Positions 253 through 11,701 of a stretch of 64,000 nucleotides of DNA are shown one piece after another. The stretch comes from Gammaproteobacteria bacterium (GTDB lineage: Bacteria > Pseudomonadota > Gammaproteobacteria > Pseudomonadales > Azotimanducaceae). A program made the position numbers and the translations under genes. Below the pieces are notes generated by a model. The model was not told the origin of the DNA. It ran no database searches and saw nothing but the letters and a program-made list of their open reading frames with translations. The stretch's first letter is position 1; each line of letters opens with the position of its first letter. The stretch is taken from positions 1-64,000 of the forward strand of contig JAJFKA010000092.1 of assembly GCA_021773555.1 (NCBI GenBank), read 5' to 3'.

Positions 253-1028
253 GCCTCCCCTTCAAGCGGAGTTTGGCCACTGATTTCTGTCTGGTATAAA
301 ACCCAGGTCAATTCTGTAATCTTCTCCGCAGACAGTTGCTGGCCCGTAGTGTCCTGGAAGGTTTTGATTTTCCCATAGCAGTCCACGAGACAGGCTAGAT
401 CCGTTCTGGACTGCGCTTCAATGAGTGGTAAGTTACTTAGCAATGATTGGACCTCCTTGGGCTCGAGTTCTTCTAGGTAGCCGTACGACTTTTTATCTCC
501 CAGAAGGTAATGGGTCCCAAGTTCTCCATCTTCGAGTTGTTCAAAAATGTAGGTCGGAATTTCTAATCCTTGAATTTCGGTCGACTGTCCTACCATTTTG
601 CGCAGTCGGGCATCTGCCGACCCGATAAGGCAATCGGTCAGTTTGACACTAACATTCCTACCCTTGTATCGCATGATCTGTGATCGCCAGGTGTATAGGG
701 CAAATCGGGGCCTGGAGACAATTAGGTACGTCCTGTCCCACTTTTCTCGTAACAACTGTGTTATGGCTTCGTTCAGTCGATCGCTCTGTTGAAATACTTG
801 CACTCGATACGGTGAGCCTAGCCCGTAGACGAGCCAGTTCAGATTCAAATTTTCAGCGACACCTATAATTGCCAATTCCTCGGTGCTAGGAAACTGCTCT
901 GTCGATTTGAACAACCGATGGACCCGATTGTCTGTAAAACCCAAACTTCTGCCCCATGCATGCCGTTTTCGTTTGCTGCCTAACACCAACGAAAGACGTT
1001 CCAGAAAGTTGTTTTTGTCCGGTTCCAC
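207..1028 (-). CDS. Helix-turn-helix transcriptional regulator (phage CI-like N-terminus)
   Basis: A 273-residue protein with a GTG start at 1028 and a purine-rich GGTAAAG upstream. Roughly the first 70 residues resemble the N-terminal domain of phage CI/C-type repressors: FLERLSLVLGSKRKRHAWGRSLGF, then a recognition-helix-like stretch, then NLNLNWLVYGLGSP, which matches the usual 'W-L-x-x-G-x-G' end of this domain. The middle and C-terminus have no recognisable LexA-type peptidase residues. It probably binds DNA as a regulator; its target is unknown. It is divergent from the protease gene at 1443 across a 414-bp spacer, so it could control that gene, but this is inference only. Confidence 0.6.
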   Translation of the reverse strand: MEPDKNNFLERLSLVLGSKRKRHAWGRSLGFTDNRVHRLFKSTEQFPSTEELAIIGVAENLNLNWLVYGLGSPYRVQVFQQSDRLNEAITQLLREKWDRTYLIVSRPRFALYTWRSQIMRYKGRNVSVKLTDCLIGSADARLRKMVGQSTEIQGLEIPTYIFEQLEDGELGTHYLLGDKKSYGYLEELEPKEVQSLLSNLPLIEAQSRTDLACLVDCYGKIKTFQDTTGQQLSAEKITELTWVLYQTEISGQTPLEGEAQVSSALSSSSIGNE

Positions 1029-1442
1029 TTTACTTTACCGCTAAAATAGAAAGGAAAGTTTAAGTAAATGGATCCCTTGTGTCTATAAATAGAAATATTG
1101 AGCATCTCTGCAGGGAAGGGTGCATGATTTCCACTCGCACAGGGAAAGCCATTTCCTCCGCCTAGGAGCCACTAATTTTTAGTCGCACCGCATTTCCTTC
1201 GCCAGTTATTGTCGTTTATGAAATTAATGGAGGATAAAAATGGCGAAAATACACCACAATATTTCGCCATAAATCGTCACCTGCTTTCTCATATAGCTCG
1301 AAGTTATTTAAAAACAACAAGATAAGGCTAACTTCTAGAATGGCATGAGGTATGCTTTATATCCCCTGCTGAAATGTGTTTTGGTCACTCTACTTTTGTG
1401 CCCAGAAAATTTCGAGTTACTTGATCAACCGGAGAGTTTGTG
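1029..1442. other. 414-bp AT-rich divergent intergenic region
   Basis: The spacer between the repressor gene (minus) and the protease gene (plus) is AT-rich. It carries a ten-codon mini-ORF with a strong ribosome-binding site inside an inverted repeat (1240-1272, listed separately). A GGAGAG Shine-Dalgarno at 1431-1436 sets the protease start. I could not assign a convincing -35/-10 pair for either gene. Confidence 0.4.
1240..1272 (+). promoter_or_regulatory. Mini-ORF in a hairpin, possible leader peptide or operator
   Basis: ATG at 1240 opens a ten-codon frame (MAKIHHNISP) ending in TAA at 1270, preceded by GGAGGA at 1229-1234, about the best Shine-Dalgarno in the area. The same bases form an inverted repeat: TGGCGAAA at 1241-1248 and TTTCGCCA at 1262-1269. 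This could be a leader peptide controlling the protease about 170 bp downstream, or the palindrome could simply be an operator for the divergent repressor. There is no T-run, so it is not an intrinsic terminator. Confidence 0.3.
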
Positions 1443-4400
1443 ATGATGAAATTGAGAACACTGGTTACTACGCCTTTGCTCTTGTTGCTGATAGGTGCGA
1501 ATGACCTCGATGTTGGAATCGAGAGTCCTGGCCAAGGTAACAATTTGGCCCGCCTAATTAGCGACGCCGATTCGAATCAATCAATCGTAGGCAACGAGGT
1601 GAGAGGCGGCGTTTTAGTTTCTTCCTCTCGGATTGAGCAGTTTGCGGAAGAACCGGGCATGGATGCCCAACCTCTGATGGTACGTTATTTGTGGGGCAAG
1701 GAAGAGCCCGCAAGTTATTCGCCTGCTGGGGACCTTCAGGGCAGGGATGCCCATTCCGCTTTTGAAAACAGATGGATTGACTCTCTAAACACATTGATCA
1801 TGGAAGACGTGGGCAGGGACGCCCACACCCAATTATTGGCTGCGGTTGAATCACCAGATTCGCCGTTGGTCAGGACGTCTGCGGAAGAACCGGGCAAGGA
1901 TGCCCAGCCTTTGATTGCGCGTTATTTGTGGGACAAGGAAGATCCAGCAAGTTACACGCCATTGAGGGAAGTTCAGGGCATGGACGCCCATTCCGCTTAT
2001 GAGGAAGGCTGGTTTGATTTACCGGGTATGTTGATCAGGGAAGAAGTGGGCAGGGACGCCCACAACCGGTTATTAGCGTCTGCTACGGTGCAGACGTCGC
2101 CCTTGACTAGCGAAACTGTAGGAGCCTCAGGGCAAGAAGCTCAGTTCTGGGTAGCGCGCTATTTGTGGGACTCTGAAAACCCATCCAGCTTTCTGCCGTT
2201 AAAGATCAATGACCGCAGAGAATCTCGTGCGGTTTATTTAAATGAGAAATCATCACAAAAATCAAAACCACAAACTAGACGCTTAAAACCAAGGCATCCG
2301 GTGGACACCAGCGAGGCCATTGCAAGATATTTGTGGGATGAGGAAGAGCCCGTTACTGAAGGATTTAGATTCAGGGAAGAGTTGGGCGGGGACATTTCTC
2401 CATTAGTCGCTCGATACTTGTGGGATGAAGAAGAACCAGTGTCACAAGGTTATGGAACGGAAGAGAAGTTGAGCAGTGACAGCACGCCACTGGTAGCTCG
2501 CTATTTGTGGGATGAAGAAGAGCCTGTATCTGAGAGCTTCTCGCCACTTGAGGAGCCGTGGGCAATAGATTTCCTCCCGCTTCTGAGTCGTCTTAAAAAC
2601 GACAAGAATTGGTCCTCAAGCTCTCTCTCGAATCCCAATTCGATGGATTCTGCGGAACCGATCCATTTCACCCGGAGTGAGTCGAACCAAATTGGATTAG
2701 CTGCCGAGGATTGGGTAGCTGCCTCTGCGAATGCGGCTGACTACATTTTGGTGGGTCATGACTTGGATAGGCTCAAAGTCCACCTAGGAACGAAGAGATT
2801 ATCGATTTCGCGTGAAGCAAAGATTATCAATGCAGTGAGCATGCGCCTTACGCCTGATGAGCTTAAGTCGATCACTCCTGGATACTTGCGTTCTGTAGTT
2901 AGAGATACTTCAGTCGAAACTGCAGCCATTAAGTATTCTGCCAAAGGAGACCCTGAATTAATCGTATCAGGAAACACAGTTTCCTGGGCTGTACACAACC
3001 TCGGGAAAAAGGAACTAACTTTTTCGGAGTTCTTTGTAGAATGGCCGTCAGCAAATGGCAGCTTGACCAAAGTTGTGGTCGACGGTGTGCTAGTGCACGA
3101 AGGGATTATTTCAACCGCGGTGAAACTACCTACGAACCTCCCTTTGAAAAAGAATAAATCTAACGAGATCATTCTGACTTTTTCTAATCAAGCGCAGGAT
3201 CTACCGGATGACTATCAACTTACTGCAACTTTCGCGCAAGGATTGGAAGTGGAGTACCTATTTCGATCGAGCCTACCGATGCAAGGCAAGCGCCGAGATA
3301 CTTTTTTCCCGACACTAATTGATGCCGACCTTTTACATCATGAAGGCATAACTGGTAAGGGTGTCGGAGTCGCGATCATCGACACTGGAGTCTGGGCTAA
3401 CAAGGGCTTGCGACACGATTCACAAGGTAATGACCGAATACGTAGTTACTACGATGCAATAACTGACTCAGATAGTGAGGAGATGCTCGACGAGAACGGT
3501 CATGGGACGCATATTGCAAGTGTAATTGGATCTTCTCGCAAAACAGTCGACCTAAATGGAAATAAGACAGGAAGTTACCATGGGATTGCGCCTGATTCTG
3601 ACCTCATCATTGTAAAAGCGTTTGATGCAGAAGGCCGTGGATCATACATGGACGTCATTAGAGCGATCGAATACGTTATTTCGCACAAAGATGATCTTGG
3701 TATACGCGTGCTGAACTTGTCATTTAGCGGTGATCCTATGTCCCACTATTGGCAAGATCCAATGAACCTAGCAGTAATGGCTGCTTGGCAGGCCGGAATT
3801 GTAGTGGTCGTGTCAAGTGGAAACAGCGGGCCTGATCCACTTTCAATAGGTGTGCCAGGGAATGTTCCTTACGTCGTCACGGTGGGTGCAGTGACAGACC
3901 ACTACACACCCGACCTTCTTAGCGATGACTATCTAGCGACATTCTCTTCAGTTGGCCCCACTTATGAGGGATTTGTTAAACCAGAGATAACCGCACCCGG
4001 TGGACACATCATGGGCACAATGCGACAGAAGTCGACGATTGCAACTGAACATCCTCAGTTCCATGATGGATATAGTTACTTTCTCATGTCGGGGACGTCG
4101 CAGGCCTCCGCTGTGGCGAGCGGGGTGGCTGCTTTAATTTTGCAGCAAGACCCGACCCTAAGTGTCAATGACGTAAAGTGCAGACTAATAGCGTCTGCAA
4201 GATCCGCCAAAAATCTGGATGGTACTTTGGTATATAGCGTCTTTCAGCAAGGAGCAGGATTGGTAAACGCTTATGATGCTGTGCATAGCGACGCTTCGGG
4301 ATGTGTCAATCTAGGTTTGGACATCGATGCAGATCTCGCGGGAGAAATTCATTTTGGTGGGCCGGCAGAAATTGATAGTGATGGGGTTCCGGCGCTGGCT

Positions 4401-4718
4401 GCAAGCAGCGAAAATACGTGGGCTGTGCCATCGGTGTCTACAGAAGGTCATCTCTGGAATGCAGGCCACATCTGGAATGCAGGCTACATTTGGAACGCTA
4501 GCGTGGTGTGGAATACCGAGGTGCTAGATCAAAATGGCGGCACTTGGAGTATGGAGGACTTTGAGTCAAACGGTTATATATGGAACGCTGGTTACATTTG
4601 GAATGCAGGTTACATATGGAACGCTGGTTACATATGGAATGCAGGCTATTTGTGGAGCGCTGGTAATCTTGAACCCAATGAGGACATGCAAGTGAATCAG
4701 TGGGTGAACCAGGAGTGA
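1443..4718 (+). CDS. Subtilisin-like S8 serine protease with two families of internal repeats
   Basis: A 1091-residue secreted protease. GTG 1440, ATG 1443 and ATG 1446 are all in frame; GGAGAG at 1431-1436 is best spaced for ATG 1443. A signal-peptide-like hydrophobic stretch (LVTTPLLLLLIGA) follows. Residues about 60-370 hold repeats built around RYLW and G-x-DA-H/Q. The peptidase domain lies at about 615-980 with the complete triad: Asp647 in AIIDTGVW, His687 in NGHGTHIA, Ser886 in SGTSQAS, plus the oxyanion region SSGNSGP. The C-terminus carries about nine hexapeptides of the type GYIWNA. The family cleaves peptide bonds, usually after secretion and removal of a propeptide; the N-terminal repeats may belong to such a propeptide. 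Only 42 bases separate it from the sensor kinase, so co-transcription is likely. Confidence 0.9.
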   Translation: MMKLRTLVTTPLLLLLIGANDLDVGIESPGQGNNLARLISDADSNQSIVGNEVRGGVLVSSSRIEQFAEEPGMDAQPLMVRYLWGKEEPASYSPAGDLQGRDAHSAFENRWIDSLNTLIMEDVGRDAHTQLLAAVESPDSPLVRTSAEEPGKDAQPLIARYLWDKEDPASYTPLREVQGMDAHSAYEEGWFDLPGMLIREEVGRDAHNRLLASATVQTSPLTSETVGASGQEAQFWVARYLWDSENPSSFLPLKINDRRESRAVYLNEKSSQKSKPQTRRLKPRHPVDTSEAIARYLWDEEEPVTEGFRFREELGGDISPLVARYLWDEEEPVSQGYGTEEKLSSDSTPLVARYLWDEEEPVSESFSPLEEPWAIDFLPLLSRLKNDKNWSSSSLSNPNSMDSAEPIHFTRSESNQIGLAAEDWVAASANAADYILVGHDLDRLKVHLGTKRLSISREAKIINAVSMRLTPDELKSITPGYLRSVVRDTSVETAAIKYSAKGDPELIVSGNTVSWAVHNLGKKELTFSEFFVEWPSANGSLTKVVVDGVLVHEGIISTAVKLPTNLPLKKNKSNEIILTFSNQAQDLPDDYQLTATFAQGLEVEYLFRSSLPMQGKRRDTFFPTLIDADLLHHEGITGKGVGVAIIDTGVWANKGLRHDSQGNDRIRSYYDAITDSDSEEMLDENGHGTHIASVIGSSRKTVDLNGNKTGSYHGIAPDSDLIIVKAFDAEGRGSYMDVIRAIEYVISHKDDLGIRVLNLSFSGDPMSHYWQDPMNLAVMAAWQAGIVVVVSSGNSGPDPLSIGVPGNVPYVVTVGAVTDHYTPDLLSDDYLATFSSVGPTYEGFVKPEITAPGGHIMGTMRQKSTIATEHPQFHDGYSYFLMSGTSQASAVASGVAALILQQDPTLSVNDVKCRLIASARSAKNLDGTLVYSVFQQGAGLVNAYDAVHSDASGCVNLGLDIDADLAGEIHFGGPAEIDSDGVPALAASSENTWAVPSVSTEGHLWNAGHIWNAGYIWNASVVWNTEVLDQNGGTWSMEDFESNGYIWNAGYIWNAGYIWNAGYIWNAGYLWSAGNLEPNEDMQVNQWVNQE
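1647..2541 (+). repeat. N-terminal RYLW / G-x-DA-H repeat region of the S8 protease
   Basis: The tetrapeptide RYLW occurs six times, with its Arg codon at 1683, 1920, 2157, 2325, 2412 and 2499. The spacings are 79, 79, 56, 29 and 29 codons. The first two intervals are a duplicated unit with strong DNA identity (both open GCGGAAGAACCGGGCA). The last units read (I/V)ARYLWDEEEPV. Interleaved GRDAH, GMDAH and GKDAQ motifs recur inside the 79-residue units. The regular periods point to recent tandem duplication. Confidence 0.85.
4446..4661 (+). repeat. C-terminal WNAG hexapeptide repeats of the S8 protease
   Basis: Four hexapeptides (GHLWNA, GHIWNA, GYIWNA, SVVWNT) are followed by a 20-residue break and then five more (four GYIWNA and one GYLWSA). 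The unit is 18 bp at the DNA level and the last copies are almost identical. A tryptophan every six residues suggests a regular beta structure at the C-terminus of the secreted protein. Confidence 0.9.
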
Positions 4719-4760
4719 TTAGATTGTCGATGTTTAATCGCGAGATGATCGAGTAGTACC

Positions 4761-7700
4761 GTGCTGATCCTTGATAACTTAGAGGGGTTAACTCAGGTAA
4801 GACCGCACAAAATTGTGCGGTCACTTCCTAGATATCCCTCGCGGCTTCTATTGGCGTTGATAGTTTTTCTTTTTCTTTGGGTGAGCCAGGCAGTTGGTTC
4901 CGATAATAAATTGGCTGATCAAAGGAATGTTATCTTTGATCGGATTGGATCATCGGAAGGATTATCGCAGGGAAGCGTCCAATCGATAACACAAGATCAG
5001 CAAGGATTTCTTTGGATAGGAACCCAGGAAGGCTTGAACCGATATGACGGTCACAGTTTTCAAACGTACTATCACATCCAGGGAGTGGAAGGGTCTCTAT
5101 CACATGATTTCATTCGATCCCTGCTCGCAGATTCCTCTGGAAGGTTTTGGGTTGGGACTGACTCAGGACTAAACCTATATGACAGTGCTTCGAATCAATT
5201 CACACTCTTCAACTTTGATTTAACTGGGGATGCGAATCGAAGTGCGGTCTACGACCTTCACGAGGATGAGAGCGGGAGTATTTGGATTGGCGCGAGTTCA
5301 GGACTGTTCAAACTATCGCAAGAAGGCGAGCTTAGCGAGTACTCTTATGATCTAACGGATCCGACGAGTCTTGGTAAGGGTAGTGTACGGGCGTTGTTTC
5401 AATCTAGTGACGGCGCGTTTTGGGTAGGGACTGAACTAGGAGGGTTGAGTAAGTTTGATCCAAAAACCGGGAGGTCCGTCAGATTTCAGTTTTCTCCGAA
5501 CGATCCCAACACGATTGGTGATAATTATGTTCGAGACATAATTGAAGATGAAGATGGCCGCTTGTGGGCTGCTACCTTTAATGGAGGATTGTCGATCTAT
5601 GATCCGAAAACAGAAAACTGGGACCGAATTTCGGCTGGAGATGATAACGGCTATGGCGTCGGATCAAACAGGGTAAGGGCTTTGCTTAAAGATCAGAGCG
5701 GCAACATCTGGGTCGGAACGGACGTGGGGCTAAATCTCTGGAGGCCAGACTCTCAAGACTTTCTGAGCTATGTCGTCGATGTAACCAATGTTCGAAGTAT
5801 CAGCGATAACACCGTCCTGTGCATTTTTCAGGATGCTGGGGGTGTAATTTGGGTTGGAACTTTCAACGGAGTAAACAAATGGAACGCGAATGTTGAAACT
5901 TTTCCACATTTCAAGCAAAGGAGTATTACCCCAAGTGAGTTGACAAGTAGCTCCACATCTTCTTTTGCGGAGGCGCCGAACGGTGATGTTTGGATTGGGA
6001 CATTTTCGGGATTGAATTTGTGGAATTCTGTTGAAGGAAGACTTGAGGCTCTGTCATCAGATGAGCTTGGACTAACCGATGCAAGGATAATGTCACTGCT
6101 GGTCGTTGATGACTCATTGTGGGTAGGAACAATGGCCGGAGGTGTGAATCTAATTTCTGATCGCCGAGTTTTGTCGACTTTTAGGTCTACACCTCATGAT
6201 GCAAATAGCCTCTCATCGAATGCAGTCAGCAGCATCTACCAAGATAAGTTGGGGCGGGTGTGGCTCACGACTTATGGAGGCGGCGTCAATCGATACATGG
6301 GTGATGGTAAATTTAAGCGTTTCCCGGATCTTACTAACTCATACGGCAAATTTAGCAATATGCGTGCGCTAGATATTGTTGAAGCAGCGGATGGGACGAT
6401 GTGGATTGCAACGGAAGGCGGAGGCGTCATAGTTTTGGATCCCGAGTCAGGCGACACATTAACTTTCCGTTTTGATCCGTTGAACGACCAAAGCCTCTCT
6501 AGTGACATGGCCATATCGTTGTTGCGCACCGGTGAAACTATGTGGGTCGGGACGCTCGACCGAGGACTGAACAGATTTGAGCCAAGCACTGGTAGTTTCA
6601 GGCGATATAGCAAGAGCCAAGGCTTAGCAAGTGATGCTGTCTACGGCATGCTCGAAGACGACAACGGTAACATCTGGATAAGTGGTGGAAAGGGACTTTC
6701 AGTGTTGAACCCGAAAACAAATACCTTCCAACTGTATGATTCAACCCACGGACTTCAAGCAGATGACTTTAACAGCGGCGCCTCGCTTAAGTTGTCAGAT
6801 GGTAGTTTCATTTTTGGTGGCAACAACGGATTCAATGCGTTTGATCCTACAAGAATTCACCGGAATGACTATGTGCCGCCGGTCAGACTGACCAGTTTTA
6901 GCAAGTTCAATAAACAGGTCGAGTTACCAGTTCCAATTGACCGTGCGCAATCTATCGAACTTGAGTACACAGACTTTGTGATTGGTTTCGAATTTTCATC
7001 GCTGGACTATACGGCACCAGCAAAAAATCAGTACAAATACAAACTGGAAGGCTTTGATCCTGATTGGGTAGATTCGGATGGGGGGCGAACAGCGACATAT
7101 ACAAACCTGGATGCCGGGCAGTACGTATTTAAGGTTAAAGGTTCAAACAACGACGGGGTCTGGAATGAAGAGGGGGCAGCTGTTGAAGTAATTGTAAAGC
7201 CACCAATCTGGGCAACCTGGTGGGCATATCTGGTTTACGGCGTGTTGCTGGCAGTTGTTTTGCATCAGGTGTATCGGGCTTACACTGCGCGACTCCAGCG
7301 TGAAGCTGAGAAGCGCTATAGCGATCGACTCCAGTTGTACATTGAATCGTTGGAGGAAGCGACAGATTGCGTCCTGATAGCGGATCACCAGGGTAAGCTT
7401 ATTTATGCGAACAATGCCACCCGATCCATTCTGGGACAAACTCCTGCAGAAGCGGTTGGTAAACCACTGGTCTCGGTTGTATTTGAAGACCAGGGAGATT
7501 CAAAGCGGGCGCTGGTTGCGCTTGAGCAGTTTGGTCGTTACCACGGAGAAGTGACTTATCTCACTGATGACGGTAACAATCTGGCTACCGAGGTCACGAT
7601 CGCAGCAGTGAGGGAAATTGGTGAGCATGGTTCTGCGTTTGTTTCGATCTCCCGCGACATTACGAACCGTAAGAAAACAGAGGAAGAACTCGAAAACCAC

Positions 7701-8420
7701 CGAAGGAATCTGGAACAACTGGTGACCGAGCGCACCAGTGCACTTGAGAGAGAAATTGCTGAGAACAAAGCCACTCAGGTGAATCTGGCAGATTCGCTTG
7801 AAGAAAAAGAGCTCCTGTTGAAAGAAGTTCATCACCGGGTTAAGAACAACATGCAGGTGATCTCCAGCCTGCTGAACATTCAGGCTGAAACAGCGGATAA
7901 CGAGTTATTCTCAAGCCTGCTGGGTGAGAGCCAGCAGCGAATTAAATCTATGTCGCTGATCCACGAAAATTTGTACCAATCTGACAATTTGTTAGAGATA
8001 GATTTCGAAGACTATATTGAGATGCTCGCCAATAGTTTGTGTCGCTTTTACGCCGTTCCTGGCGTTGACGTAATTTTGGACGTGCGCGTCGATGATGTGT
8101 CCTTGGATATTGAAACTGCGGTTCCCTGTGGGCTCATTATCAATGAACTCGTGTCCAACTCGTTGAAGCATGCCTTCAAGGGTCGGCAGGGAACCGGAAC
8201 CATATCTATCGCTTTTAAACAGGCTGGATGCGGATATGCACTACAGATTAGGGATGATGGTGTAGGGCTGCCAAGAGATTTTCAACTGGATAGCAGTTCC
8301 TCCATGGGAATGGAGATTGTTTCCATCTTGACGCAGCAACTTGACGGTAAAATCCGTACGCTCGAAACCGAGGGTGCTGGATTCGAAATATTATTTCCAA
8401 GGACAGAAAAACATGGTTAA
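4761..8420 (+). CDS. Sensor histidine kinase with Reg_prop beta-propeller, Y_Y_Y domain, PAS and HisKA_2-type kinase core
   Basis: A 1219-residue hybrid of a periplasmic sensor and a cytoplasmic kinase. A hydrophobic signal/anchor (about residues 30-45) is followed by about 14 Reg_prop-type repeats with the pattern G-x-(I/L)-W-(I/V)-G-T that build two seven-bladed propellers. Then come a Y_Y_Y domain (YKYKLEGFDPDW), a membrane helix near residue 820, a PAS domain (about 860-970), a coiled coil, the phospho-acceptor His near 1024 (EVHHRVKNN, typical of HisKA_2/HWE-like kinases) and an ATPase domain (INELVSNSLKHAF, DDGVGLP). The GTG 4761 start has a weak ribosome-binding site; GTG 4815, inside a palindrome, is the alternative. 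Its stop overlaps the next gene, its likely partner regulator. Confidence 0.88.
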   Translation: MLILDNLEGLTQVRPHKIVRSLPRYPSRLLLALIVFLFLWVSQAVGSDNKLADQRNVIFDRIGSSEGLSQGSVQSITQDQQGFLWIGTQEGLNRYDGHSFQTYYHIQGVEGSLSHDFIRSLLADSSGRFWVGTDSGLNLYDSASNQFTLFNFDLTGDANRSAVYDLHEDESGSIWIGASSGLFKLSQEGELSEYSYDLTDPTSLGKGSVRALFQSSDGAFWVGTELGGLSKFDPKTGRSVRFQFSPNDPNTIGDNYVRDIIEDEDGRLWAATFNGGLSIYDPKTENWDRISAGDDNGYGVGSNRVRALLKDQSGNIWVGTDVGLNLWRPDSQDFLSYVVDVTNVRSISDNTVLCIFQDAGGVIWVGTFNGVNKWNANVETFPHFKQRSITPSELTSSSTSSFAEAPNGDVWIGTFSGLNLWNSVEGRLEALSSDELGLTDARIMSLLVVDDSLWVGTMAGGVNLISDRRVLSTFRSTPHDANSLSSNAVSSIYQDKLGRVWLTTYGGGVNRYMGDGKFKRFPDLTNSYGKFSNMRALDIVEAADGTMWIATEGGGVIVLDPESGDTLTFRFDPLNDQSLSSDMAISLLRTGETMWVGTLDRGLNRFEPSTGSFRRYSKSQGLASDAVYGMLEDDNGNIWISGGKGLSVLNPKTNTFQLYDSTHGLQADDFNSGASLKLSDGSFIFGGNNGFNAFDPTRIHRNDYVPPVRLTSFSKFNKQVELPVPIDRAQSIELEYTDFVIGFEFSSLDYTAPAKNQYKYKLEGFDPDWVDSDGGRTATYTNLDAGQYVFKVKGSNNDGVWNEEGAAVEVIVKPPIWATWWAYLVYGVLLAVVLHQVYRAYTARLQREAEKRYSDRLQLYIESLEEATDCVLIADHQGKLIYANNATRSILGQTPAEAVGKPLVSVVFEDQGDSKRALVALEQFGRYHGEVTYLTDDGNNLATEVTIAAVREIGEHGSAFVSISRDITNRKKTEEELENHRRNLEQLVTERTSALEREIAENKATQVNLADSLEEKELLLKEVHHRVKNNMQVISSLLNIQAETADNELFSSLLGESQQRIKSMSLIHENLYQSDNLLEIDFEDYIEMLANSLCRFYAVPGVDVILDVRVDDVSLDIETAVPCGLIINELVSNSLKHAFKGRQGTGTISIAFKQAGCGYALQIRDDGVGLPRDFQLDSSSSMGMEIVSILTQQLDGKIRTLETEGAGFEILFPRTEKHG
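4801..4822. promoter_or_regulatory. 22-bp palindrome at the start of the sensor kinase gene
   Basis: Two perfect 10-bp arms, GACCGCACAA (4801-4810) and TTGTGCGGTC (4813-4822), are separated by AA. No T-run follows and the central gap is too short for a stable loop, so a protein-binding operator fits better than a terminator. It falls at codons 14-21 if GTG 4761 is the start, or overlaps the start if GTG 4815 is used. Confidence 0.45.
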
Positions 8421-10512
8421 TAAAACAATTCTGGTGGTTGAAGATGAAGTCTTGGTTGCAAGAGATATCCAGTCTCGCCTAACGCGGATGGGATATGAGG
8501 TGCTGAGCATCGCTTCCCGCGGAAAGGAAGCAATCACTAAAGCTCTGGATCTCAGGCCCGACCTTATCTTGATGGATATTAACCTGCGGGATGAAATGGA
8601 CGGTGTCGAGGCGGCGGTCCAGATTCGCCTCTCATATGATGTGCCGATCATATTTTGCACGGCCTATTCTAACGATGAGACGTTGGAGCGCGCCAAGATT
8701 TCAGATCCCTATGGATATGTTTTGAAGCCGTTTGACAACCGCGAACTCGAAATCAATATTGAGATTGCGCTCTACAAACATAGAACGGAAAAAGATCTTT
8801 CTGCAACTCGACGCAGACTGGATGCCACGCTCACGAATGTCAGTGACGGTGTAATCGCCGCTGATCTAAGTGGCGAAGTGTATGTGGTCAATCCTGTCGC
8901 GGAGAGAATAACTGGATGTTGTCGTCAAAAAGCCAGTCTTATGAAATTGCGCGACATTATGAAACTCGAATGCTTCGAGCCCGGGCAGAAGTCTGTGGAC
9001 TTTTCTGAATCACTGGCATATTTGAACGAACATGTGACAGGTATGCGCCAATATTTGATCAAGGACAATGGCGTGCGTGTGCCAATAGAGTTGAGCGTTA
9101 ACATTCTCGATGAAAATCTGTCTAATCTGATTGTCATCACTTTCAGAGATATCAGCCAGCAGTTGAGTTATGAAGAGACTATTCGCAAGAACGCGTTTTT
9201 TGATGACTTAACCGAACTACCGAATCGCTCGCTGTTTGTGGATCGACTTGATAGCTCGCTGAATCGTCGTAAACGTGACAGGAAACCGGAAGACTTTGCG
9301 GTGTTGTTCCTGGATCTGGATGGCTTTGGCGTGATCAACGATGGCCTTGGTCACGATCAGGGAGATGCATTGATTACGGAAATCGGACTCCGAATAATAA
9401 ATACGGTTAGACCGGATGATACGGTATCGAGATTCAGTGGTGACATTTTCGCTATTCTGCTGGATCCGGTTGAAGGTGTGACGGGCGCGATCACCGCGTG
9501 CCAGCGTATTCTGCAGTCCATCGAAGAACCGATTGAACTCGGTGGCACAGTCGTCAATATTGCGGCCAGTGTCGGCATTGTCCTTAACCACGGTAATTAT
9601 CGTACCGGTGATGAAATGATCAGGGATGCGGACAATGCGTTGCACCGGGCGAAGCTCGATTCCAAGGGCGGGTATGTCATCTTTGACAACGAGATGTATC
9701 GCGACGCGAAAAAATATCTCGATCGCAAAAGTGGAATGCAGCAGGCACTGCTCGATAGTACATTCGAAGTCTACTATCAGCCGATCGTTGATACCTACAC
9801 GGGTGTACTGACGAGTATGGAAGCATTGGTTCGCTGGCCCCATCCTGTTGAAGGTATGGTCTCACCGGCGGAATTCATTCCCATCGCCGAGGAAACCGGA
9901 TTGATCCTGCCGTTGGGTGAATGGGTGCTGCGATCTGTCTGCAATCAAATCAAGGATTGGAACGACAGCGGATTTGACGATTTCAGGGTAGCGGTAAATC
10001 TGTCGGCAAGGCAGTTTGAAAACAACATACCGGGATTGATCGGCGGTATTCTGGATGAAACAAACATAGACCACAGTTCTCTGGGCCTGGAGATTACCGA
10101 AGGTGTTGCCATGCGGGATGTAGAACATATCATCCGCATGCTGGAGGAACTAAAAGACCTCGGCCTGAATATCAGTATCGATGACTTTGGCACGGGATAC
10201 AGTTCACTAGCCTATCTGAAGCGATTCCCGCTGAATACTCTGAAGATTGATCGTTCATTTATTATGGATATCACGGATAACCCCGATGACCGTGAGATCA
10301 CCAAGGCGATTATCGGCATGGGCCAGAACTTGAACCTTAAGGTATTGGCCGAAGGTGTGGAAACATCCAGTCAGTTGGAGATACTGCGGCGCAATGGCTG
10401 TGATTTTATCCAGGGTTACTACTACAGTAAGCCCCTACCGGCAACCGAGATTCTTCCGTTCCTGAGTAACCGACAATTGATCGGCGAGCGACGGCTTGAG
10501 TTGATCGCTTAA
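8413..10512 (+). CDS. Response regulator with REC, PAS, degenerate GGDEF and intact EAL domains
   Basis: A 699-residue c-di-GMP phosphodiesterase-type response regulator. ATG 8413 is chosen because AAGGA (8399-8403) sits 9 bases upstream and the gene overlaps the kinase stop by 8 bases, indicating translational coupling. Domains: REC (1-120) with phospho-acceptor Asp55 in LMDINL; PAS (about 135-250); GGDEF-like (about 265-425) where the signature is SGDIF at 342-346, so cyclase activity is not expected; EAL (about 440-685) with EALVRW at 470, NLSAR, LEITEG, DDFGTGYSS and LAEGVET, the residues needed for c-di-GMP hydrolysis. The likely role is to lower c-di-GMP in response to the upstream kinase. 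Confidence 0.92.
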   Translation: MVNKTILVVEDEVLVARDIQSRLTRMGYEVLSIASRGKEAITKALDLRPDLILMDINLRDEMDGVEAAVQIRLSYDVPIIFCTAYSNDETLERAKISDPYGYVLKPFDNRELEINIEIALYKHRTEKDLSATRRRLDATLTNVSDGVIAADLSGEVYVVNPVAERITGCCRQKASLMKLRDIMKLECFEPGQKSVDFSESLAYLNEHVTGMRQYLIKDNGVRVPIELSVNILDENLSNLIVITFRDISQQLSYEETIRKNAFFDDLTELPNRSLFVDRLDSSLNRRKRDRKPEDFAVLFLDLDGFGVINDGLGHDQGDALITEIGLRIINTVRPDDTVSRFSGDIFAILLDPVEGVTGAITACQRILQSIEEPIELGGTVVNIAASVGIVLNHGNYRTGDEMIRDADNALHRAKLDSKGGYVIFDNEMYRDAKKYLDRKSGMQQALLDSTFEVYYQPIVDTYTGVLTSMEALVRWPHPVEGMVSPAEFIPIAEETGLILPLGEWVLRSVCNQIKDWNDSGFDDFRVAVNLSARQFENNIPGLIGGILDETNIDHSSLGLEITEGVAMRDVEHIIRMLEELKDLGLNISIDDFGTGYSSLAYLKRFPLNTLKIDRSFIMDITDNPDDREITKAIIGMGQNLNLKVLAEGVETSSQLEILRRNGCDFIQGYYYSKPLPATEILPFLSNRQLIGERRLELIA

Positions 10513-10615
10513 ATCGATTGGATCGATTGCGGCCAGGTATCCTGGGCGATGCCTGAATGCTGGCCTCGTTGCCCGGACTTGTTCTACAATCCGGTGCAGG
10601 TTGAGGGAGTCCACC

Positions 10616-11701
10616 ATGCCAACTAATCAGTTGTACGCAGACCAGAAACTGCCGGTCAGAGGATCGATTCAGGCGAGTCATCAGGAAGGCATTGCAGGCT
10701 TTGGCAGTGCTGGCACCTGGTTTGATGGCGCACAGCGAATCGCAATGCTCCGTGCGGTGAGGCAAGCCGGGCAATGCCTGCTCTGCCAGCAACGAAAGCA
10801 ATCGCTGTCACCTTACACCCTTCAGGGAGTCCATGAGCATGATGGTGAACTACCTGATAACGTGATCGAGGTCGTCCATCGAATTAAGACTGACTCCGGA
10901 CGGCTGACCAGGCGCTGGTTTGATCGCGTTATTCAGACGGGTTTGTCAGAGCCCGAATATGTTGAAATCGTAAGTCTCGTCGCAACATCGATAATCCTCG
11001 ACAGTTTTGCCCTGGGAATCGGCGCAGGTTTAATCAGTCCACCCGCAGCACAAGCCGGGCAACCCACGCGTGAGGTAAATAAAGAAGTTTTCGATGGTGG
11101 TGCATGGGTACCGATCATGGACGTTGTCCAGGAGGAGACAGATACCGGTTTGCCTTCTGCGCCCAACATTTTCAGGTCAATGGGTTTGGTTCCTGCAGCA
11201 ATCGCACATTTTTTTGGCGTCATGCGTGCGCATTATTCCCTGTCGGAGCTGGACTTTGCGCTTTCCCGGTCTCAGATCGAACTGATCGCCGCGCGGGTAT
11301 CCTCGCTCAACCAGTGTTTCTACTGAACGACATCACACACAATGCTGCTTCGTCGAAGTGGCGAGAACCAGAGCGAAGACTACAATCTTGGTGTGATCAC
11401 CGAAGCGGATGAGGGTCGAGTCGGGATTGATCGAGAAGACATATTGCTTGAGATTGCAGGTGCAGTCGTAAACGGCGACCCCCAGTCACTGGAACAGGTT
11501 CGTAAAACGGGTGCGGAATTCCTGGGGGAACAGGCGTTAGCTGACGCTATCGCCGTGGCGGCAGGGTTCAATGGCATTACCAAGGTTGCTAACGCAACTG
11601 GTTTGCCGTTGGATGCTGAAACGGAAACCACTACGGTTTTGATGCGTGAGCAGACCCGCATTGATCAGTTCGCCGATAGTTACAAAGCGAATCAGTTCTG
11701 A
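10616..11701 (+). CDS. AhpD/CMD-like selenoprotein (in-frame TGA read as selenocysteine at codon 237)
   Basis: I read this as one 361-residue gene from ATG 10616 (GAGGGAG at 10603-10609) to TGA 11699-11701, with an in-frame TGA at 11324-11326 encoding selenocysteine. The AhpD active site is E-x11-C-x2-C-x3-H. Here it is Glu222, Cys234, the TGA codon at 237, then TTSH with His241, so TGA replaces exactly the second redox cysteine. The frame continues 125 codons with normal composition and no ribosome-binding site before the next ATG (11342). A SECIS-like hairpin follows the TGA. AhpD/carboxymuconolactone decarboxylase-type proteins use the pair for thiol-dependent peroxide or disulfide reduction; selenoprotein versions are known from marine metagenomes. 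A standard gene caller would split it into 10616-11326 and 11342-11701. The alternative is a nonsense mutation in a pseudogene. Confidence 0.82.
11344..11362 (+). promoter_or_regulatory. Bacterial SECIS-like hairpin
   Basis: The stem pairs 11344-11351 with 11355-11362 (eight pairs including two G-U), closing a loop of GTC at 11352-11354. The loop begins with G, the upper four pairs are Watson-Crick, and 25 bases separate the TGA at 11324-11326 from the loop. These values fit the usual bacterial SECIS rules (loop of 3-14 bases, G in the first two loop positions, 16-37 bases from UGA) for SelB recruitment. Confidence 0.75.

Follow-up and report, generated by a model that had tools for sequence, protein, structure and literature searches.

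Locus and reading frame

The window analysed here is a stretch of 64,000 nucleotides from contig JAJFKA010000092.1 of a gammaproteobacterium assigned to the Azotimanducaceae. The frame at 10616-11701 on the forward strand contains a single in-frame stop, the TGA at 11324-11326, which is codon 237; the rest is open. The initial annotation had described a frame from 10616 to 11326 that ends at this TGA and then continues in the same frame, and this description is exact. The features of the gene are listed below, all on the forward strand.

10603-10609, +: Shine-Dalgarno-like GAGGGAG, 6 nt 5' of the ATG at 10616, read from the sequence
10616-11701, +: predicted AhpD-related selenoprotein coding sequence, 361 residues including Sec237, then stop TGA at 11699-11701
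10655-11134, +: N-terminal half, with C54-x2-C57 (codons 10775-10777 and 10784-10786), H73, H88, D93, E117 and D129 invariant or nearly so
11279-11281, +: Glu222, equivalent of Glu118 of M. tuberculosis AhpD
11315-11317, +: Cys234, equivalent of Cys130 of M. tuberculosis AhpD
11324-11326, +: in-frame TGA, read as Sec237, equivalent of Cys133 of M. tuberculosis AhpD; Cys (TGC) in the distant homologue L046
11336-11338, +: His241, equivalent of His137 of M. tuberculosis AhpD
11344-11362, +: SECIS-like hairpin, 8-bp stem 11344-11351 / 11355-11362, loop GTC

The residues around the TGA are E222-x11-C234-F-Y-U237-T-T-S-H241, which is the AhpD motif E-x11-C-x2-C-x3-H with Sec as the second Cys. It had been noted before that a Glu lies exactly 12 residues ahead of Cys234 and that the TGA replaces the second Cys of this motif; the residues are confirmed. 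The case is very solid, and the TGA almost certainly specifies the active-site Sec of an AhpD-like redox protein and is not a stop.

The gene begins 103 nt after a kinase and response regulator gene pair at 4761-10512 of the window. The first gene of the pair encodes a sensor histidine kinase with a two-component-regulator propeller; the second overlaps it and encodes a response regulator that carries GGDEF and EAL domains. Both have relatives near the orthologue on the G001 contig, and there is one more regulator-like match in L057. Apart from scattered pairs, the conserved-neighbour analysis recovered nothing but the gene's own two halves, and it gave no neighbour that points to a substrate.

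Family assignment

The read-through protein matches the NCBIfam model NF041238 (AhpD_rel_CFYUT) over residues 14-353 with 401 bits (E=5.1e-120), which is above the curated cut-off of 175 bits. The protein also matches Pfam CMD (E=4e-8), and its C-terminal half matches solved AhpD-like chains at the sequence level. NF041238 is described as an "alkylhydroperoxidase-related (seleno)protein" with a CxxU motif, and Table 1 of a 2026 review (PMC13188914) equates it with the Sargasso Sea protein "hypothetical protein 1". In the 2005 Sargasso Sea selenoproteome, hypothetical protein 1 comprised four sequences with CXXU, a SECIS element and Cys homologues (PMC1088965). Therefore, this kind of selenoprotein was already known, and the window gene is a well-supported addition to a selenoprotein family predicted in 2005. 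The literature search gave no match for the string CFYUT.

The initial annotation expected automatic annotation to miss the active site. This need no longer happen, because the NCBI annotation models include NF041238. Reading the TGA-split gene as one selenoprotein keeps the active site in the annotation. The family has been in catalogues since 2005, and its descriptions in the papers cited here name no tested function. New here are three paralogues in one genome that stem from an old duplication, a selenoprotein-selA-selB-selC cluster, and a hint of a second, degenerate AhpD-like repeat in the N-terminal half, where a CxxC is invariant.

Conservation of the TGA and selection

The sample consisted of 38 genomes, namely the genome of the window (G000) and relatives. 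The NF041238 family is above the cut-off in 20 of them, and 31 motif-bearing copies were extracted. A TGA is found at the position of codon 237 in all 31 copies from the 20 genomes, which agrees with the earlier remark that a TGA at this codon is unlikely to arise by chance. In the full-length copies above the NF041238 cut-off it is the sole in-frame stop, and E222, C234, Y236, U237 and H241 are invariant (31/31 copies).

The tree of the copies has two deep clades with support of 100/100; three rows that are long or partial (G006b, G007 and G023b) have an uncertain position in it. Both clades are represented in each of G000, G001, G006, G008, G010 and G019. Therefore, the duplication is old and the TGA has been kept in both branches. 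The window's own genome has two more full-length paralogues, L022 (contig C114) and L065 (contig C59); both have the TGA at the equivalent codon and belong to the other deep clade than the window copy. Compared with its nearest orthologue, the window gene has a pN/pS of 0.34 before the TGA and 0.36 after it, with synonymous sites saturated. These values indicate that purifying selection acts on both sides of the codon.

A distant homologue in an uncultured Bermanella MAG (L046:4965-6150) reads N-Q-C-F-Y-C-T-T-S-H, with the Cys encoded by TGC at the position of the TGA. This Cys-type gene has a frame change between its halves, which is either a pseudogene or an assembly error. The G007 copy (L035/L055, contig C84) has the TGA, and its N-terminal part is in another frame owing to a frameshift upstream of the TGA. 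Some copies may therefore be decaying or misassembled. It had been proposed that decayed downstream sequence in relatives would count against a selenoprotein. The frame after the TGA is open and under purifying selection in the 20 genomes, and the exception, G007, is frameshifted upstream.

No relatives were found in the plasmid and viral collections. Under strict limits, 0/368 and 0/397 other genomes matched in evenly drawn class and phylum samples, respectively; therefore, the distribution of the family is narrow.

Selenocysteine machinery

The absence of selA, selB, selC and selD from the genome had likewise been named as an argument against Sec, and all four components were found. The tRNA-Sec scores 67.6 bits, above the Rfam cut-off, and ARAGORN assigns it the anticodon tca. 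The selA (569 bits) and selB (423 bits) genes adjoin; SelA is complete and SelB has the C-terminal winged helices. The selD match (287 bits) lies in a 722-residue fusion with a pyridine-nucleotide-disulfide oxidoreductase domain (L070:11375-13543). The SelD part of this fusion has a Cys motif, CGGC, and not Sec near its start. An Ndh-SelD fusion type is on record from marine data (PMC2398784), and the fused SelD found here looks alike.

The NF041238 family is present in 20 of the 26 selA-positive genomes and in none of the 12 selA-negative genomes (Fisher p=7e-6, shared ancestry ignored); in G019 and G021 selA is fragmentary. In G035 (L067, contig C321), which is in the same order but a different family, the selenoprotein gene (300-1577), selA (1738-3240), selB (3237-5207) and tRNA-Sec (5242-5335) follow each other on the forward strand at 300-5335, within 5.1 kb. 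The three Sec-retaining paralogues in the window's genome and the compact cluster in this relative make a good test case for the continued use of selenium in the lineage.

SECIS-like hairpin

The hairpin begins 17 nt 3' of the TGA, and its loop G at 11352 is invariant. Bacterial SECIS elements are defined by a hairpin shortly after the UGA with a small apical loop and a conserved G (PMC1088965); the window hairpin has the position, the small loop and the conserved G. Across the 31 homologues, compared without gaps, a 7-bp stem has 86% of its cells paired, the highest value among 824 offsets along the gene. A count on 29 sequences gave 87% paired, with 10 cells altered on both sides, while slid versions of the stem gave 30-51%.

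Random synonymous recoding resulted in 48% pairing, and 0/1000 recodings were as high as the observed 86%. Synonymous codon swaps among the homologues resulted in 84%, and 0/2000 were as high as observed. Since the margin over the codon-swap control is narrow, much of the pairing is due to shared column make-up; the remaining excess is small but consistent. The folding energy of the hairpin is not exceptional compared with other parts of the gene (mean z about -0.7; -0.4 for the hairpin in the window). Because the folding energy alone is ordinary, the structural case rests on the conserved pairing, which is partly a consequence of the conserved protein.

Interpretation of the TGA codon

The TGA might be read as another residue, either Trp under code 4 or by near-cognate read-through, and read-through by itself would also yield the full protein. 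Many other genes in the window end in TGA, and therefore TGA is not a general sense codon here. The Sec machinery is present and the homologue L046 has Cys at the site; a residue other than Sec is very unlikely.

The gene could also be a pseudogene or contain a sequencing error, with a nonsense mutation in a former Cys-type AhpD-like gene. The TGC in L046 and the frameshift in G007 are in keeping with such decay, but the TGA is common to all 31 copies in 20 genomes, including the three paralogues of the window's genome, the sequence 3' of the TGA is under purifying selection, and the selA-negative relatives do not have the family. An origin by mutation or error is thus improbable in the extreme. 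A split into one gene at 10601/10616-11326 and another starting at ATG 11342 is mechanically possible, since both frames are open, but it has hardly any probability. ATG 11342 encodes the Met within H-x-M-L-L-R, a conserved stretch of the AhpD active-site region, and has no Shine-Dalgarno-like sequence ahead of it. The break would also cut the catalytic motif and divide a protein covered in both parts by NF041238.

The locus is best described as one gene, in which UGA 237 is very probably translated as Sec by SelB and tRNA-Sec under the direction of the hairpin. The predicted product, a member of NF041238, would be an AhpD-related thiol/selenol oxidoreductase.

Proposed mechanism

The TGA, the motif, its conservation, the SECIS-like hairpin and the machinery are present in the sequence, and from them we infer the insertion of Sec. 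SelB and tRNA-Sec would decode UGA 237, guided by the hairpin that starts 17 nt downstream. The redox chemistry, substrate and partner are proposed by analogy with AhpD. C234-x2-U237 would form the redox centre, with Glu222 and His241 activating it via a proton relay. The selenolate may attack an oxidised substrate, for which a peroxide or a disulfide is the probable candidate, and Cys234 would resolve the intermediate as a selenenylsulfide. A cellular reductant would then restore the C234/U237 pair.

N-terminal half

Profiles of the N- and C-terminal halves align in hhalign with E=0.0011 and a probability of 20%. The CxxC is aligned on the CxxU, and the helix Y-V-E-L-x-G-V-V on V-D-A-A-G-V-A. 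An earlier hhalign run in which the halves were cut at other boundaries gave a probability of ~1%, which is not significant. Only two solved chains were matched by the profile of the N-terminal half, and both are AhpD-like (E=0.64 and 1.1). The AlphaFold2 model of the protein, made from a 3-row alignment only, has a mean pLDDT of 40. The N-terminal half may represent a second CMD/AhpD repeat that has degenerated. The protein might then be an internal pseudo-dimer working as a one-chain thiol-selenol relay, with C54-x2-C57 either donating electrons to C234-x2-Sec237 or accepting a disulfide from it; this suggestion is tentative and rather doubtful. It is an equally open possibility that C54, C57, H73 and H88 form a metal site.

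Comparison with known proteins

The window protein scores 16.6 bits (E=0.005) against AhpD proper (TIGR00777), far below the cut-off of 191.95 bits. The term AhpD-like thus refers to the probable mode of action of the protein and not to membership in TIGR00777. The C-terminal half matches the peroxidase-related model TIGR01926 with 40 bits, which is below its cut-off of 81.8 bits. The solved chains 6k40, 2pfx, 3c1l, 2prr and 2oyo, which are related to TIGR01926 and have about 190 residues, match this same half and do not have the N-terminal half.

The proton relay of M. tuberculosis AhpD involves Glu118, Cys130, His132, Cys133 and His137 (PMC3141380). The spacing of its Glu, Cys, Cys and His is identical to that of E222, C234, U237 and H241. 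The window protein differs in having Sec for Cys133, Tyr236 for His132 and an additional N-terminal half. The AhpD-like protein PA0269 of P. aeruginosa likewise has a Tyr (Tyr50) where M. tuberculosis AhpD has His132. Compared with the NF041238 family there is no difference of substance; the match is full-length, and the CFYUT motif and the position of Sec are held in common.
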